Program-made: the position numbers and the translations under genes
In this document: positions 15,249 through 41,485 of the stretch, in pieces
Layout: the number at the start of each line of letters is the position of its first letter
Numbering within the stretch: the first letter of the stretch is position 1
Notes under the pieces: model-generated
What the model was told of the DNA's origin: nothing
Seen by the model: the letters and a program-made list of their open reading frames with translations, nothing else
Database searches by the model: none
Assembly (NCBI GenBank): GCA_016788565.1
Contig: JAEUSP010000084.1
Coordinates: forward strand, 1 to 41,485
Length of the DNA stretch: 41,485 bases
Origin: Chlorobiota bacterium
Lineage (GTDB): Bacteria; Bacteroidota; Ignavibacteria; OLB7
Direction: 5' to 3'

Positions 15249-18200
15249 ATGTACCTTTCCAAACTCGAAATCGTCGGCTTTAAGTCGTTTGCGCACAAAA
15301 CCATCCTCCGTTTCAACGATGGCATCACCGCTGTGGTTGGGCCGAATGGTTGCGGGAAGTGTGTTGTTGGTTCTTCTGTTGTCACTCTTGCTGATGGGGG
15401 CAGGATAACAATCCAAGAACTTGTTCAGCAAGCGTTAGATAGCAACAACCACCGTGTTCACTACGACGACGGCGTCGCTGTGCTTGATAGAGAAGGGGCA
15501 ACGCAGGTTCTTTCGTTGAACCCTAATACTCTGCGCTTTGAAGCGCGTCCGGTGACTGCTTTTGTTCGCCGCACTGCGCCACCCACCTTGCTTCGTATCC
15601 GCACACGCAGTGGGCGCGAGGTGACAGCAACACCCTACCATCCGCTGTTTACGCTGAAAGAAGGAAAACTGCAAGCTGTGAAAGCTGAGGAGATAACGGT
15701 AGGGCTACGGATTGCGATACCACGCAAGCTATACTCGGAACAAAATAGTTTGCGAAATCCTACGAATCTGGATGCGCCGATAGACCGAATGGATTCACAT
15801 CGCAGGCCTATCGGCTCGCGCCTTCGGGGGAACAACAGTGTGAGTATTGTGGCAGACCACTTTCATTGGAGTATAGCAGCAAACTCCGTTGATACTGTTA
15901 GCTGGGATGAAATTATTGCTGTTGATGAACTACAACCCCAAGACCCCTGGGTATATGATCTCTGCGTAGATGAAACCCACAACTTCGTTGCTGACAATAT
16001 CGTTGTCCACAACAGCAATGTTATTGACGCAATCCGTTGGGCGATTGGCGAACAAAAAGCCTCGGTCCTTCGCTCCGATAAAATGGAAGAGGTGATCTTT
16101 AACGGGGCCGGAAAACGCCGCCCGCTTGGCATGGCCGAAGTCTCGCTCACCATCGAAAACACCAAAGGAATCCTTCCAACGGAGTACAGCGAAGTTGTTA
16201 TCACACGCCGGCTGTTCCGCAACGGCGATAGTGAGTATCTGCTGAACAAAACCCAATGCCGTTTGCGCGACATCGTGGACCTGTTCATGGACACCGGAAT
16301 GGGGGCCAACGCCTACTCGGTGATTGAGCTAAAAATGATCGAAACAATCCTCAGCGACCGCGCCGACGAACGCCGCCGATTGTTCGAGGAAGCCGCAGGG
16401 GTCACCAAATACAAAGTCCGCCGCCGCGAAGCTCTCCGCAAATTAGACTCCACACAAGCCGACCTACTCCGCGTTCACGACATCGTGAAGGAGGTGGCAA
16501 AAAAGGTGGCCGCGCTGGAACGCCAAGCAAAAAAAGCGGAAGAATACACCACCCTTGATGCCGAACGCAAACGGGTTGAGATTGAGGTGCTGGAACGTGA
16601 GTACGCCACCACCAGCGCACGCATTGCTCCGCTGGAACAACGCCTTGCCGAAGCCAAATCCAAACGAACCGAGCTGGATTCCGTGCTGGCCCAGGAGGAG
16701 ACAATCCTGCGTGAGTTGGAGCGGGAACAAGGTGAGATAGAGTCCGCCCTGATTGAAGCCCAGAAAGACCTGAACGCCGTCACCGAACGGATTGCCACGG
16801 TGGAGCAACGCCAGGCCGTTTCGGCGGAACGCCGCCGCTCGCTTACCTCCATCATCGAAAATTCCCAGCGTGACATCAAGGAAGCTGAAGGGGGGATTGA
16901 GGTGTTGATGAAAGAACGCGGCGAGGTGGAAGCCTTGATTGAACGCTTGGCCGAACAGAACCGCATTGCCGAAGCGGAGTACGAAGCGATCCGTTCGGAA
17001 GTGATGCTGAACGAAGCCGCGCTGGCCGGCCGCCGCGCCGAAGCCAAACGTTCGCAAGACCGGGTGATTGATGTGATTAACCGCTTGGCCGCGCTGCGCG
17101 GCGAAGAAGAACGCACCCGCGCCCGCATTGAGGTGATCCGCCAACGCTTGGATGAGTTCGACGAACAGGATGAAGAAGCCCGCCTTGATCTTGAGCAGAT
17201 TGAGGAAGTGCTGATTGGCCTAACCACCCAACTGAACCAAGCCACAGCCAACTTGGATGAAGCGCAACGCCAGTTTGAAGAAGGGCAAGCAGAAAAGGGG
17301 ACGCTCCGGGCCGAGATTGATGACCTTCGCACCCAAACGATTGAGCTTCACAACGCCATCAACAGCCGCAAATCGAAAATTGATTTCTTGAACGGCTTGG
17401 TGGATCAAGATGAATCAGTCCGATTCCTGGTTCAGCAACCCGATTGGACCCCGGTGGAGCGGATCACCGTTGCCGAGTCAATCTCCACCGATGAGCAATT
17501 CCGCACCGCCGTTGCTGCCGCGCTTGGCAACGCTGGCCGATTCCTGATTGTCCCCACTGCCGACGACGCTTTGCGCGGCGTGCAATCGCTGCAATCCAAC
17601 CGCAAGGGGAAAGCCACGTTCGTCTGCTTGGATCGAATCCCCCCAACCGCGCCACGCCCGTTGCCGGCTGGGGTGAGCGCAATCGGCTGGGCAGCCGACC
17701 TGTGCGTTTCGGCACCGAACTTCGATCATCTTCGCCACCACCTACTTGGCGGAACCGTCGTGGTTGAAACCTTGGAGCAAGCGTTTGCCGCATCGGCTCA
17801 CAACCTGGTGGAGCAGGCCGTGACGTTGGATGGTGTGCTGATCCGCAACGGCGGGCTGATCCGCGGCGGCGGGCGCACTGCCGACGAAGGGATCACGATC
17901 GGCAAACGCCAGCAGATTGAACGGCTGGAACAGGAGGCCGCAAAACTCACAACCCAACTTGACGCGCTAACCCGTGCCATTGCCGAAAAAACGGAGCAGC
18001 ACAACGCCATCAATCTGGGAACCCTGAGCAACGCCATTCGCCAAGCGCAGCAGCAGGTGGGGAACTTGGAGAAGCAGCGCGGGCAGGCTGAGTACGAGCA
18101 AGAATCGGCCAACGAACTTTTGGACGGCCACGAGAACGACCGCGCCCGCGCCCACGAGGAAATCCAACGGTTAGAAGGATTGCTGGAAGGGACCGAACCG

Positions 18201-19442
18201 CGCAGAAACGAACTGGCCCAGGAGCAATCCACCGCCGAGCAAACCGCACGCCAACTGAACACCGAATTAGAACGGATGGAGGTAGGCTTTGCTGAACAGT
18301 CGCGCCAGATGAACGAAAAACAAGTTCTGCTGGCTGGGCTGCGCGGCGACCAACGAAGCGCGCGCGCCGAGCTTGAGCGAATGGCCCGCGACCGCGAAAA
18401 TGCCGAGCGAACAATCCAACGCCGAACCCAAGAACAGGAGCGCGCCCAGGATGAACTTGGGCAGCTGGAAGGGGAGCTTGAGGAGTATGCGGTGCAGCTG
18501 CAGAGCTTCCGTGCCGAGCTTGCCGAGGCCCAAGCAAAGCGCGAGGAAGTGGTGCAACGCCAATCCGCAAAACGGGAGGAGATTTTCCGCCACGGCGAGA
18601 CCCTGCGCGAGGAACGCCGCGACTACGAACGCTCCATCGAGCAAATGCACGAGATTGAGTTGAAACTTGGCGAGTTGAAACTGAAAGCCGAAAGCCTTGT
18701 CCAGCGGGGCCGCGAGGAATTGGAGATTGAGCTTGAACTGAAAGAGTTCGGCGACGATGACATGAAGATGGGGGAGCTTCGCGAGACGCTGCGCCAGATA
18801 AAAGGGCGGTTGAAAATGATGGGTTCGGTGAACCTGCTGGCCTACGACGAATGGCGCGAGGAGAACGAACGCTACCAGTTCCTGCAAGGGCAGTTAGACG
18901 ACCTGAAGCAGGCCGAAGATTCCTTGATGAAAACCATTGCCGAGATTAACGACACCGCGCAGCGGAAATTTGTTGAGACCTTCGAGCAGATACGAACCAA
19001 CTTCCAGGACATCTTCCGAACGCTGTTTTTGGAAGGGGATGAGGCCGATCTGAAAATTGCCGACGGCGACCCGCTGGAAGCGCAGATTGAAATCATCGCC
19101 AAGCCTCGCGGGAAGCGGCCACACTCGATTGACCTGCTTTCCGGCGGCGAAAAAACACTGACGGCGATTGCCTTGCTCTTCTCCATCTACCTGGTGAAGC
19201 CCTCTCCGTTCTGCATTCTGGACGAAGTGGATGCCCCGTTAGACGATGCCAACATTGACCGTTTTGTGCAGCTAATCAAGCGGTTCGATAACGAAACGCA
19301 GTTTATCATCGTTACCCACAACAAGCGGACAATGGGGGCCGCCGACACCATGTATGGAGTTACGCAGGAGGAGGATGGCGTGTCGAAAATCGTCTCGGTG
19401 CGGTTCACCGAAACCAAAAAACAGGAGATCATTTACAGTTAG
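15249..19442 (+). CDS. smc: Chromosome segregation ATPase SMC, intein-containing precursor
   Basis: The frame encodes 1397 residues. Removing a 218-residue intein (residues 38-255) leaves 1179, the usual SMC length. Extein features in order: YLSKLEIVGFKSFAHKTILR, Walker A GPNGCGK/SN split by the intein, WAIGEQ with the Q-loop, then a long coiled coil (from about residue 395). A hinge domain with RFLIVP and VVVETLEQA comes at about 700-890, with Gly-rich RNGGLIRGGG at its end. A second coiled coil follows, then the ABC signature LLSGGEKTL (about 1296) and Walker B with FCILDEVDAPLDDAN. SMC dimers organise and segregate the chromosome together with ScpA/ScpB (not in this window). ATP binding cannot occur until the intein is spliced out, so activity depends on protein splicing. 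Confidence 0.95.
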   Translation: MYLSKLEIVGFKSFAHKTILRFNDGITAVVGPNGCGKCVVGSSVVTLADGGRITIQELVQQALDSNNHRVHYDDGVAVLDREGATQVLSLNPNTLRFEARPVTAFVRRTAPPTLLRIRTRSGREVTATPYHPLFTLKEGKLQAVKAEEITVGLRIAIPRKLYSEQNSLRNPTNLDAPIDRMDSHRRPIGSRLRGNNSVSIVADHFHWSIAANSVDTVSWDEIIAVDELQPQDPWVYDLCVDETHNFVADNIVVHNSNVIDAIRWAIGEQKASVLRSDKMEEVIFNGAGKRRPLGMAEVSLTIENTKGILPTEYSEVVITRRLFRNGDSEYLLNKTQCRLRDIVDLFMDTGMGANAYSVIELKMIETILSDRADERRRLFEEAAGVTKYKVRRREALRKLDSTQADLLRVHDIVKEVAKKVAALERQAKKAEEYTTLDAERKRVEIEVLEREYATTSARIAPLEQRLAEAKSKRTELDSVLAQEETILRELEREQGEIESALIEAQKDLNAVTERIATVEQRQAVSAERRRSLTSIIENSQRDIKEAEGGIEVLMKERGEVEALIERLAEQNRIAEAEYEAIRSEVMLNEAALAGRRAEAKRSQDRVIDVINRLAALRGEEERTRARIEVIRQRLDEFDEQDEEARLDLEQIEEVLIGLTTQLNQATANLDEAQRQFEEGQAEKGTLRAEIDDLRTQTIELHNAINSRKSKIDFLNGLVDQDESVRFLVQQPDWTPVERITVAESISTDEQFRTAVAAALGNAGRFLIVPTADDALRGVQSLQSNRKGKATFVCLDRIPPTAPRPLPAGVSAIGWAADLCVSAPNFDHLRHHLLGGTVVVETLEQAFAASAHNLVEQAVTLDGVLIRNGGLIRGGGRTADEGITIGKRQQIERLEQEAAKLTTQLDALTRAIAEKTEQHNAINLGTLSNAIRQAQQQVGNLEKQRGQAEYEQESANELLDGHENDRARAHEEIQRLEGLLEGTEPRRNELAQEQSTAEQTARQLNTELERMEVGFAEQSRQMNEKQVLLAGLRGDQRSARAELERMARDRENAERTIQRRTQEQERAQDELGQLEGELEEYAVQLQSFRAELAEAQAKREEVVQRQSAKREEIFRHGETLREERRDYERSIEQMHEIELKLGELKLKAESLVQRGREELEIELELKEFGDDDMKMGELRETLRQIKGRLKMMGSVNLLAYDEWREENERYQFLQGQLDDLKQAEDSLMKTIAEINDTAQRKFVETFEQIRTNFQDIFRTLFLEGDEADLKIADGDPLEAQIEIIAKPRGKRPHSIDLLSGGEKTLTAIALLFSIYLVKPSPFCILDEVDAPLDDANIDRFVQLIKRFDNETQFIIVTHNKRTMGAADTMYGVTQEEDGVSKIVSVRFTETKKQEIIYS
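15360..16013 (+). other. Mini-intein in SMC, inserted in Walker A
   Basis: In-frame intein of 218 residues between GPNGCGK and SN of the SMC P-loop. Block A begins with the nucleophile Cys (CVVGSSVVTLADGG). Block B is REVTATPYHPLFTL with its TxxH. Block F is VYDLCVDETHNFVADN, and block G ends VVHN with penultimate His and terminal Asn, followed by Ser as the +1 extein residue. All splicing residues are therefore present and it should be active. There is no LAGLIDADG motif and no room for a homing endonuclease, so it is a mini-intein that cannot home by itself. The segment between blocks B and F is partly encoded by a palindromic repeat (15730-15875). Confidence 0.92.
15730..15875. repeat. Palindromic TATACTC/GAGTATA element inside the intein
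   Basis: 146 bp bounded by GCTATACTC (from 15728) and GAGTATAGC (to 15877). The left side reads GGAACAAAATAGTTTGCGAA, matching the end of the intergenic copy at 19572-19687 read on its minus strand (AGAGCAAATTGGTTTGCGAA). In that orientation the two copies are also read in the same frame: KLYSEQNSLRNPTNL here, KLYSEQIGLRNSTQL there, and both end near WSIA. The element spans SMC precursor residues of about 161-209 and keeps the frame open. Confidence 0.8.
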
Positions 19443-34985: not shown

Positions 34986-35189
34986 AGCAAGTCACCCCGT
35001 TGGGGCTTTGGAAGGTTTCCCCCGTGCGTGGTCATGGTGAGTGTAATCGCGTTTGGTTTTGGTTGTGAGCATCCGTTGGATGTTTGCATGTACCGCCCTG
35101 AAGGGGCATTCTATGCCAGCCCAGGGCAACGCCCTGGGAACAAAGGCAAGGAAGGATTCCAAGCCCTGAAGGGACGGCCTATCAGGTAG
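34986..35189. repeat. REP/BIME array, units after rpoC
   Basis: Partial a-unit (CACCCCGTTGGGGCTTTGGA) followed by a b-unit: GTTTGGTTTTGGTTGTGAGC, ACCGCCCTGAAGGGGCATTC, CAGCCCAGGGCAACGCCCTG and AAGCCCTGAAGGGACGGCC. Hairpins GCCCtgaaGGGGC and CCCAGGGCaacGCCCTGGG are evident. The b-unit is the inverted counterpart of the a-unit. Open frames through it are artefacts. Confidence 0.85.
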
Positions 35190-35214
35190 GGCAATTGCAG
35201 AGGTAGAATCCATT

Positions 35215-35480
35215 TTTTAGATCGCCCCTTCAGGGCTTTGGTTGGTTATGTGGCCTCGGGTCCCAGGGCGTTGCCCTGGGCTGTCGTGGTTCGCTCCGTT
35301 GGGGCTGTGGAAGGTATCCCCTGGGTGAGGTCATCGTGAGTGTAATCGCGTTTGGTTTTGGCTGTGAGCATCCGTTGGATGTTTGCATGTACCGCCCTGA
35401 AGGGGCATTCTATGCCAGCCCAGGGCAACGCCCTGGGAACAAAGGCAAGGAAGGATTCCAAGCCCTGAAGGGGCGGCCGA
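35215..35480. repeat. REP/BIME array, full a+b unit left of the Y1 transposase
   Basis: The a-half begins GATCGCCCCTTCAGGGCTTT and contains CCCAGGGCGTTGCCCTGGGC. The b-half ends AAGCCCTGAAGGGGCGGCC at about 35480. The complete unit is about 265 bp. The linker between the preceding b-unit and this one (GGGCAATTGCAGAGGTAGAA) recurs at 36270-36300. Confidence 0.88.
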
Positions 35481-35489
35481 ACGTGGGGA

Positions 35490-35942
35490 TCAATCCCACA
35501 CATACCGTTCATCAAACGTGATGCCGTGGCGTTGTAAGAAGGCGCGGTATTCCTCCTGAAATGTTTTTTGGCGATGGTGTTCCTGCTGCTTCGCAATGTA
35601 GTCACGGACGGATGGCACGTTGGATTGGCTGACGGTAAACGCCCCATAACCAGACTGCCATGCAAACTCTGCAAATTCTGGTCCTTGAATTTTGATCCAT
35701 TTGGAGGAGGATTTTTTGACATCCTCCACCACTTGGCTAACTGATACGGTTCGAGCGAGTTCAAAAAGGAGGTGGATATGGTCTTCAACAGAATTGATGA
35801 AAATGGGAACGCAGCCAAGATTTTTCAGCATGGTGGCGATGTAAGCGTGCAGTGAATGGCGTACAGTGTCAGTGATGCGTCGTTCACGGTGTTTGGTGCT
35901 GAAGACAAGATGAATGTAGAGACGTGCAAGAGATTGAGGCAT
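35490..35942 (-). CDS. IS200/IS605-type Y1 (HUH) transposase, RAYT-like
   Basis: 150 residues, an intact single-domain Y1 transposase. The HUH metal site is DHIHLLFE (about residues 53-60). The catalytic Tyr region is VRDYIAKQQEHHRQKTFQEE, and the protein ends HGITFDERYVWD, as in IS200-like TnpA. These enzymes cut and join single-stranded DNA at hairpins. No tnpB accompanies it. It sits exactly at a junction between a b-unit (ending 35480) and an a-unit (starting about 36007) of a palindromic repeat array, as REP-associated transposases often do. It may therefore mobilise or have spread these repeats. No separate IS ends are seen apart from the REP hairpins. Confidence 0.88.
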   Translation of the reverse strand: MPQSLARLYIHLVFSTKHRERRITDTVRHSLHAYIATMLKNLGCVPIFINSVEDHIHLLFELARTVSVSQVVEDVKKSSSKWIKIQGPEFAEFAWQSGYGAFTVSQSNVPSVRDYIAKQQEHHRQKTFQEEYRAFLQRHGITFDERYVWD

Positions 35943-36002
35943 AAAGTAGTTCGCAGTTTCAGTGGGTGGTTTTGTTTGTTCAATGGAGCCGTGATTGGGA
36001 AT

Positions 36003-36270
36003 TTTAGGTCGCCCCTTCAGGGCTTTGGTTGGTTATATGGCCTCGGGTCCCAGGGCGTTGCCCTGGGCTGATATGGGTCGCCCCGTTGGGGCTTTGGAAG
36101 GTTTCCCCCGTGCGTGGTCATCGTGAGTGAGTTCCCGATTTAGTTTTGGCTGTGAGCATCCGCTGGATGTTTGCATGTACCGCCCTGAAGGGGCATTCTA
36201 TGCCAGCCCAGGGCAACGCCCTGGGGGAACAAAGGCAAGGAAGGATTCCAAGCCCTGAAGGGGCGGCCTA
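36003..36270. repeat. REP/BIME array, full a+b unit right of the Y1 transposase
   Basis: Starts GGTCGCCCCTTCAGGGCTTT and ends AAGCCCTGAAGGGGCGGCC, with the same internal hairpins as the unit at 35215-35480. Together the two units flank the transposase gene. Confidence 0.88.
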
Positions 36271-36302
36271 TCAGGGAGGGCAATTGCAGAGGTAGAATCC
36301 AT

Positions 36303-36715
36303 TTTTTAGATCGCCCCTTCAGGGCTTTGGTTGGTTATGTGGCCTCAGTCCCAGGGCGTTGCCCTGGGCTGGTATGGTTCGCCCCTTCAGGGCTTTGGAA
36401 GATTTCCCCCTTGCGTGGTCATGGTGAGTGATTTGTTGTTTGGTGTTGGCTGTGAACATCGTTTCGATGTTTGCATGTACCGCCCTGAAGGGGCATTCTA
36501 TGCCAGCCCAGGGCAACGCCCTGGGGGAACAAAGGCAAGGAAGGATTCCAAGCCCTGAAGGGGCGGCCGAAAAGATTGTTTGGTTTTGGCTGTGAGCATC
36601 CGTTGGATGTTTGCATGTACCGCCCTGAAGGGGCATTCTATGCCAGCCCAGGGCAACGCCCTGGGAACAAAGGCAAGGAAGGATTCCAAGCCCTGAAGGG
36701 GCGGCCTACGAGGTG
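36303..36715. repeat. REP/BIME array, a+b unit plus an extra b-unit
   Basis: An a+b unit (36310-36568) is followed directly by a second b-unit (about 36578-36708) that lacks its a-half. All GCCC/GGGC and CCCAGGGC/GCCCTGGG hairpins are conserved. The array ends about 30 bp from the stop of the minus-strand helicase gene, so it may serve as its transcript end. Confidence 0.88.
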
Positions 36716-36741
36716 GGGGGATCAATCACAATGTCTGCGGC

Positions 36742-39282
<2,541 letters not shown>

Positions 39283-39410
39283 GGGTGTGTTCCTGCACGT
39301 TCGGTTCGCATTTTCAGACCGTGGGTTATTTGTTCATTGCATACCCAAGACATTGTTTTGGGTTTTCGTGAGGTATGCCGTTGAGGTTTGGATTGGGCGG
39401 AGTTTGACAT

Positions 39411-39794
39411 TTTTAGATCGCCCCTTCAGGGCTTTGGTTGGTTATGTGGCCTCGGGTCCCAGGGCGTTGCCCTGGGCTGGTATGGTTCGCCCCTTCAGGG
39501 CTTTGGAAGATTTCCCCTTTTTAGATCGCCCCTTCAGGGCTTTGGTTGGTTATGTGGCCTCGGGTCCCAGGGCGTTGCCCTGGGCTGGTATGGTTCGCCC
39601 CTTCAGGGCTTTGGAAGATTTCCCCCGTGCGTGGTCATGGTGAGTGATATGTTGTTTGGTTTTGGTTGTGAGCATCCGTTGGATGTTTGCATGTACCGCC
39701 CTGAAGGGGCATTCTATGCCAGCCCAGGGCAACGCCCTGGGAACAAAGGCAAGGAAGGATTCCAAGCCCTGAAGGGGCGGCCGAAAAGGCGGAG
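39411..39794. repeat. REP/BIME array invading the DUF1016 gene
   Basis: Two a-units in tandem (about 39414-39518 and 39522-39640, nearly identical) and one b-unit (about 39655-39782, ending AAGCCCTGAAGGGGCGGCC). The array begins about 130 bp upstream of the helicase start. It runs into the 3' part of the DUF1016 frame, whose family sequence stops at about 39795. Confidence 0.88.
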
Positions 39795-40230
39795 CCACCC
39801 GCATCAACGCCCGGTAGTGCGACCAGGTGAGCTGCGGCGAAAATCCGTGCGGCTTGTCACCCGCCCAGGCCGGTTGCTGGGGCGCGGGCAATTCTCCACC
39901 CAATGGGCGGAGAATGTTTTCGTGGTGCTGATACGCCAGATAGAACTGCCGGAAATACCAAAGGTTCGTTGCCGAAAACCCCTTGCCGTACCGCTCGGTT
40001 AGCCGGGCCGATAGTTCCTCCACAATGTTCTTCCCGTACTCCGCCCGTTCTTCACCCCCTTGCAGTTCCTGCACAATCTCGCGGCCAATCAGCCAGTAGG
40101 CCAGCACCATCTGGCTGTTCACCACCCTCACGATGTTCCCACGCGCACCCTCCACAATGGAAACCACGCGCCCAAATAATCCCTCCGGCGCAGAAGGTGG
40201 AAGGCTGGCCGCGCTATTCATCCGAAGCAT
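39550..40230 (-). CDS. DUF1016/YhcG-family protein, C-terminus replaced by REP sequence
   Basis: The 226-residue frame is chimeric. Residues 1 to about 145 are a DUF1016 N-terminal domain: VVNSQMVLAYWLIGREIVQE, RAEYGKNIVEELSARLTERY and GFSATNLWYFRQFYLAY, then LTWSHYRALMRV. At that point a normal YhcG continues into a PDDEXK-type nuclease domain. Here the frame instead runs into REP units (PPLQGLESFLAFVPRALPWA) and stops. The family domain therefore ends at about 39795, and the predicted catalytic part is absent. The start overlaps the methylase stop by 17 bp, so the gene belonged to that operon. It is probably inactive as a nuclease, though the remaining domain might still bind partners. Confidence 0.8.
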   Translation of the reverse strand: MLRMNSAASLPPSAPEGLFGRVVSIVEGARGNIVRVVNSQMVLAYWLIGREIVQELQGGEERAEYGKNIVEELSARLTERYGKGFSATNLWYFRQFYLAYQHHENILRPLGGELPAPQQPAWAGDKPHGFSPQLTWSHYRALMRVAPPFRPPLQGLESFLAFVPRALPWAGIECPFRAVHANIQRMLTTKTKQHITHHDHARGKSSKALKGRTIPAQGNALGPEAT

Positions 40231-41485
40231 CTCCGCTCAACTCCATCGGCCTGATCACCGCCTCGATGTACGCAATCTCCTCCCGCGTTAGCTTGTACTT
40301 CTTGTACAGCACAGCATCCGTCCATTGCCGATCCCACGTTTGGATGGGTACCCAGGTGTACATATGACTAAAGGCATCTTGAGTGATTTTGCGAAGGGAG
40401 ACTAAAAATCGGAAGAATTTCGTTGCATAATAGGATTGGATGCTTTCTACTTCTGTCGCTGAATCGGCGGCAATCATCAAAAAAGAACCAGTACACACAG
40501 ATGGTGGTGAACTCAGCCACGGCTTACCGAGAACTGAATCGGGTATTTTTTGACCACCGTCTGAACCTGCTTTTGGTATCAGCACTTTCCACTTATTGAT
40601 GAAAGGAACACTCTTTGTAATTACGCTCCGTTGGACAAACCCAATGGCGCGCTTCCCACTTCGGACATAATGGAGAGATATGTCCCTCGGCTTCTTTTCA
40701 TCATGGAATTCGTCAAAATTGGATTCAAGTTTAAATGGTTCCCTGTTTGAGACAAGCACATCCATTCCCAATGGTTTAGATGCAATCACCTTCTTAAGGA
40801 TGCCAACCGCTCTTGTGTCCCGCACAAAGACATCAAACTCATCTAACTGCCGCGATGAAGTTGTTTCCTCATCACCACGAATTACTGTGACATCGCATGA
40901 GCCGTTGTGAGTATCTGACCAGAGGAAGTAGCAAATACCACCCTTGACTTCAACATTCGGAAAGACTTCTCTTGAGACTGGGAAATCAATCAACTTGACA
41001 AGTTTGTGCGAACTGAGCATCTCCTTGCGGAACTCATCAAGCCCCCGTCCACCAGCCATCCAACGTGAGGGAACGACCATGGATAAAAAACGTGGCTTGA
41101 GCTTCTTGGCTTGCTCAACAAACAGGTGGTAAATGGAAGAATCGCTGGAGCCGCCAGCACCACCTTTCAGCTGATACGGCGGATTCCCAATAATGACATC
41201 GAACTGCATAGAGTCTCCAAAAAGCTCGGCAACCCGAGCGTTGATGTTGTTGGTGTGGATAAAGGCGTAGGCGTGGGTTTCCAGCCCTTCGTCGCGGTCG
41301 AAAATTGTTTTTGGCGCGCCGCAAAATTGGCATTTCTGGCCCTCCCACGTATGCTCCAACCGCTGGAACCAGATATTGCCAGAATCGTTGGCGAAGGTGC
41401 CGGCAATGGAGTGTTTGCTGTTGGCGTGTTTGGAGCAGTACAGGCTTCGGCGGGCAAGCAAGCTGGTAAGGTAGGTGATGCCGAT
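40214..41485 (-). CDS. Eco57I-type DNA methyltransferase, 5' part outside the window
   Basis: The minus-strand frame is open to the window edge, so the N-terminus and SAM motif I are missing; 423 codons are visible. The adenine-methylase motif IV is present as FDVIIGNPPYQLKGG (NPPY codons at about 41173-41185). VVPSRWMAGGRGLDEFRKEM follows, as in Eco57I/type IIG or type ISP-like methylases. The C-terminal part is a probable target-recognition region. A short Cys-rich stretch (QKCQFCGAPK, with CSKHAN before it) may bind zinc. It is the first visible gene of the methylase, DUF1016, helicase operon and should modify host adenines. Confidence 0.85.
   Translation of the reverse strand: MGITYLTSLLARRSLYCSKHANSKHSIAGTFANDSGNIWFQRLEHTWEGQKCQFCGAPKTIFDRDEGLETHAYAFIHTNNINARVAELFGDSMQFDVIIGNPPYQLKGGAGGSSDSSIYHLFVEQAKKLKPRFLSMVVPSRWMAGGRGLDEFRKEMLSSHKLVKLIDFPVSREVFPNVEVKGGICYFLWSDTHNGSCDVTVIRGDEETTSSRQLDEFDVFVRDTRAVGILKKVIASKPLGMDVLVSNREPFKLESNFDEFHDEKKPRDISLHYVRSGKRAIGFVQRSVITKSVPFINKWKVLIPKAGSDGGQKIPDSVLGKPWLSSPPSVCTGSFLMIAADSATEVESIQSYYATKFFRFLVSLRKITQDAFSHMYTWVPIQTWDRQWTDAVLYKKYKLTREEIAYIEAVIRPMELSGDASDE

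Follow-up and report, generated by a model that had tools for sequence, protein, structure and literature searches.

A composite REP repeat linked to an IS200/RAYT-like transposase stands in place of the nuclease half of a DUF1016 gene in a methylase-helicase operon

The stretch of Chlorobiota bacterium DNA analysed here (41,485 nucleotides, hereafter the window) is a complete contig of its genome, C137, and carries a DUF1016 gene in which REP repeat sequence has replaced the nuclease half. This truncation is real and well supported, and adds a further example to a type of event already described. We consider it very probable that a RAYT-linked composite REP spread locally into the gene and, with a deletion, replaced about 0.7 kb of it by about 0.5 kb of repeat. 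The affected gene lies between an Eco57I-type methylase and a T5orf172/ResIII helicase, which together give the window a methylase-helicase restriction-like layout:

40214-41485, minus strand: Eco57I-type DNA methyltransferase, 3' part (PF07669, E 7.2e-34), with its 5' end on contig C80
39550-40230, minus strand: open reading frame of 226 aa, DUF1016 remnant plus repeat tail
39789-40230, minus strand: what is left of DUF1016, some 146 codons of its N-terminal part (PF17761), ortholog of the gene in the same-genus genome G001
36742-39282, minus strand: helicase-like gene with T5orf172 and ResIII domains (Pfam), intact, 846 aa, 84% identical over its length to that of G001

The truncated frame reads as DUF1016 as far as HYRALMRV and as repeat from about residue 146 on. 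Pfam places a DUF1016_N domain (PF17761) at residues 22-146 (profile positions 2-104 of 137, E 1.5e-30), and returns no match in this frame to YhcG_C (PF06250), the PDDEXK nuclease; between 39283 and 39788 no DUF1016 coding sequence is recognisable. Two claims of the first-pass annotation are borne out by these results and by the 92-96% identity of the repeat, namely that a normal YhcG-like domain switches to REP-encoded peptide after HYRALMRV, and that the C-terminal PDDEXK domain is absent ahead of the helicase. The gene probably starts not at 40230 but with the ATG at 40221, which overlaps the stop codon of the methylase. DUF1016 is listed within the PD-(D/E)XK clan (PMC1913061), and the window's N-terminal part strongly matches DUF1016/YhcG proteins (PF17761 plus PF06250; PADLOC candidate PDC-S02), whereas the window gene lacks both their PDDEXK domain and the end of their N-terminal domain. 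Judged from its sequence, the truncated product should be inactive as a PDDEXK nuclease.

The first-pass annotation had proposed comparing orthologous loci, and in G001, the only same-genus genome found for comparison (locus on contig C71), a full DUF1016 gene of 388 aa stands directly before the orthologous helicase, which is convergent with rpoC, as in the window, and occupies the same chromosomal place. The G001 protein has a complete DUF1016_N domain (residues 20-191, profile 2-137) followed by YhcG_C (residues 217-370). Because the profile match in the window ends at 104 of 137 and that in G001 is complete, the breakpoint falls within DUF1016_N, whose last quarter was lost along with the whole nuclease domain. 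Synonymous divergence (dS) between window and G001 is 0.82 for the DUF1016 N-terminal part and 0.83 for the helicase, and this equality identifies the two DUF1016 parts as orthologous. The 40 nt before the window helicase match the 40 nt before the G001 DUF1016 gene (score 37, against 19 for the runner-up among 87 loci). What counts against the preferred explanation is that the comparison relies on a single same-genus genome, itself with a same-family REP unit just upstream of its intact DUF1016 gene. A second, lost DUF1016 copy was considered as an explanation for that upstream unit and, while conceivable, is unneeded, given that DUF1016 and helicase dS agree.

The sequence that replaced the nuclease half belongs to a set of composite REP units lying on both sides of the helicase gene, one group of which surrounds a transposase:

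39518-39788, minus strand: composite REP unit U6, entered by the DUF1016 frame, which stops at 39550; 92-96% identical to U2-U4
39410-39517, minus strand: U6b, a 108-bp tandem partial copy of U6
39283-39409, minus strand: decayed REP half and short flank, with a ribosome-binding-like site before the helicase ATG
36576-36718, minus strand: composite REP unit U5, truncated
36303-36574, minus strand: composite REP unit U4
36002-36268, minus strand: composite REP unit U3
35490-35942, minus strand: IS200-like Y1 transposase, RAYT by context (PF01797, E 3.7e-26; NF033573 above cut-off)
35214-35481, minus strand: composite REP unit U2
34992-35191, minus strand: composite REP unit U1, truncated

The array within DUF1016 consists of one composite unit of about 270 bp, the 108-bp partial copy and the decayed remnant. 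In a search of the genome, copies at least 91% identical were confined to C137, at 34992-36706 and 39432-39800, with only shorter and weaker matches elsewhere; the close copies span 5 kb around the one IS200/RAYT-like transposase. The core palindrome occurs at 18 genome sites, 11 of them in C137, against 0 in a reversed control, and the plasmid records searched gave partial REP matches only, in Candidatus Thiodictyon. A candidate RAYT leader at 39300-39345 scored 40, above 500 shuffles, yet 8 of 2586 contig windows reach the same score, and this segment is better explained as a decayed REP half.

The peptide tail of the truncated protein is the REP unit's own open frame. Units U1, U2 and U5 carry the same peptide (RPPLQGLESFLAFVPRALPWAG...), with slightly different first residues in U1, and the frame in U2 terminates at the same GPEAT stop as the DUF1016 frame. 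Since the tail is the element's own frame and is present in other copies, it bears no sign of a new function. The description of this junction as a new chimeric protein end was accordingly right about the fusion of a DUF1016 front to a repeat tail but overstated its novelty. One could still suppose that the shortened protein functions as a DUF1016 N-terminal domain on its own, its new end being the repeat-encoded tail: its 146 codons have stayed open, dN/dS against the ortholog is 0.26, and several PADLOC PDC-S02 models are short. We consider this very unlikely, as the DUF1016_N profile is itself interrupted (at 104 of 137), the repeat copies encode the same tail anyway, and the dN/dS is twice that of the helicase (0.12), most of that divergence possibly predating the truncation.

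The Y1 transposase sits between the composite REP copies and is single-copy, with one match in the window genome (G000); G001 contains no match to it. The NCBI model for REP-associated transposases, NF047646, stays below its cut-off (21.3 bits vs 80), and the RAYT assignment for this reason rests on context. No target-site signature of RAYT movement was found, which likewise counts against the preferred explanation. The arrangement resembles a REPtron (RAYT/TnpA_REP with REP/REPIN; PMC3116915, PMC8266576) in that a single IS200-like Y1 transposase is flanked by palindromic repeats that are also found elsewhere in the genome. It differs in that the repeat is a composite of about 270 bp with close copies at one locus only, and in that the transposase misses the NCBI model's cut-off.

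In the sequence of events that we favour, the RAYT cluster (35.0-36.7 kb) would have supplied a REP copy that entered DUF1016, moved either by the transposase or by inter-repeat recombination, and the rest of the gene, from codon ~146 to its end, would have gone through a deletion between repeats, at the same time or later. This account draws on the intact G001 ortholog in the corresponding position, on the replacement and its breakpoints, on intact flanking genes, and on a single transposase surrounded by repeats. Also in its favour are the equal dS of DUF1016 part and helicase, the restriction of close units to this locus, the absence of the missing half from the genome, the origin of the tail in the repeat's frame, the many related operons without DUF1016, and the situation in locus L153 (both described below). 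An ordinary deletion might instead have truncated DUF1016 first, with repeats filling the dead gene later. DUF1016 does decay without repeats elsewhere, for example in locus L100, where a short fragment remains with no matching palindrome or repeat; in the window, however, DUF1016 codons pass straight into repeat with no foreign sequence between, and we regard this order of events as unlikely. Repeat entry into a coding frame, as preferred here, has precedent, since in-frame fusions of small mobile repeats with genes are already known (PMC2229807). As in the MITEs and Rickettsia palindromic elements fused in frame (PMC2229807), a repeat with an open frame has become joined to the reading frame of a host gene; unlike in the Rickettsia inserts (PMC2229807), where the host protein is otherwise whole, the catalytic domain has been lost in the window.

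A further alternative, which the first-pass annotation had itself named as what would undo its reading, is a repeat-driven misassembly in which the REP array joins two unrelated ends and the true genome has an intact DUF1016. The window genome is split into 137 contigs, same-family repeats occur at contig ends in G001, and C137 itself breaks within the methylase gene. Against this, the methylase end of C137 shares an exact 141-bp overlap with contig C80, which suggests assembly at k = 141, a value derived from the contig overlap rather than from reads and one on which the assembly argument depends. No exact repeat of 130 bp or more exists inside C137, and at k = 141 the path through the array would therefore be unambiguous. 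The DUF1016-to-REP junction is located in unique sequence, and a search of the window genome assembly for the missing DUF1016 half found it absent, with no orphan second half; the best-matching sequences, no more than 43% identical, come from paralogs with their own N-terminal halves. The repeat lengths and the genome-wide absence of the missing half make misassembly at the REP array unlikely, to the point that we would give it the smallest chance of the explanations weighed here. The break between C137 and C80 (window 41345-41485) lies in non-repeat sequence within the methylase gene, and G001 contig C35 likewise ends within its methylase gene, perhaps reflecting strain variation at that gene. 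Elsewhere in the window, the Walker A region of an SMC gene (15249-19442, plus strand) is interrupted by an in-frame intein (insert about 15381-16013; PF14890, E 2.7e-22, aa 45-255).

The damage to the operon appears limited. That the REP array had disrupted, or recombined into, a defence operon stands insofar as REP sequence replaced the nuclease half, as shown against the intact G001 ortholog, but its extent was overstated, with methylase and helicase frames intact and most homologous operons devoid of DUF1016. Of 80 related loci, 64 have the methylase directly adjoining the helicase with no DUF1016, 10 have a gap between the two, and 6 have no upstream methylase in the locus. The slot before the helicase holds varied cargo, including RhuM, Fic, Bro-N, toxin-antitoxin-like genes (assigned by eye) and DUF1016. 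Given these 64 loci and the mixed cargo of the gaps elsewhere, DUF1016 is an optional neighbour in the methylase-helicase operon, and what the window lost is an accessory gene rather than the core system. At most loci the stop codon of the upstream gene overlaps the helicase start (ATGAGTAA), whereas in the window the DUF1016 frame ends 268 bp before it. The idea that a piece of the DUF1016 tail survives ahead of the helicase (QEHTHE in the ATGAGTAA overlap) was considered and rejected, its similarity to the G001 tail coming no higher than 8th among 87 loci. For methylase and helicase we expect no effect, or at most a change in translational coupling, and we infer that their core still works, as it usually occurs without DUF1016. 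Helicases of this type (T5orf172 plus ResIII), about 80-84% identical, occur in MAGs as well as isolates from many phyla, a spread pointing to frequent horizontal transfer. Some DUF1016 genes in the slot open with codons that repeat the beginning of the helicase gene (L135:3363-3863 and L022:219-260; MNKSIEEILAPKPD in L135, and less clearly MSRSTEG in G001), a pattern that an insertion duplicating the helicase start would leave.

Related repeats have reached this slot elsewhere. In L153, on a contig binned as Candidatus Kuenenia, the helicase is preceded by a REP-flanked RAYT that is 78% identical to the window's. The 40 nt leading up to this helicase match the end of the G001 DUF1016 gene (score 34, next best 20), and a related RAYT and its REPs thus adjoin a decayed DUF1016 tail. 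Together with the insert in the window and the unit upstream of DUF1016 in G001, this brings to at least three the genomes in which same-family repeats reached the DUF1016 slot, through one old event or several.

Four REP halves in the window match the Rfam family Acido-Lenti-1 (RF01687), at 38.6-38.8 bits vs a gathering score of 37:

36049-36093, plus strand: RF01687 match, Rfam covariance model
36350-36394, plus strand: RF01687 match, Rfam covariance model
39458-39502, plus strand: RF01687 match, Rfam covariance model
39566-39610, plus strand: RF01687 match, Rfam covariance model

Acido-Lenti-1 was proposed as a candidate RNA (PMC2864571) and is listed by Rfam as an sRNA, whereas the matches in the window, although above the gathering score, belong to a repeat that accompanies a transposase. 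In other genomes, repeats next to several RAYT relatives likewise exceed the RF01687 gathering score, and in a class-wide sample 21 of 150 best RF01687 hits, in 11 genomes, lay within 500 bp of a RAYT relative, compared with 0.08 expected (both lists hold best hits only, and the expectation assumes random placement). This clustering beside IS200/RAYT-like genes is more suggestive of mobile DNA than of an RNA gene. We tentatively raise the possibility, which we would not yet call probable, that Acido-Lenti-1, at least in this class, is the hairpin of an IS200/RAYT-linked DNA repeat and not an RNA gene, and that this repeat recurrently erodes the accessory slot of a widely transferred methylase-helicase operon. 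If the link to Acido-Lenti-1 holds, a database RNA family would move into mobile DNA. In the window itself, the removal of a catalytic domain by a REP/RAYT repeat is well resolved against an intact gene at the same locus, and DUF1016 is seen to be optional cargo, occupying an exchangeable slot of a methylase-helicase operon whose helicase is 80-84% identical across phyla.
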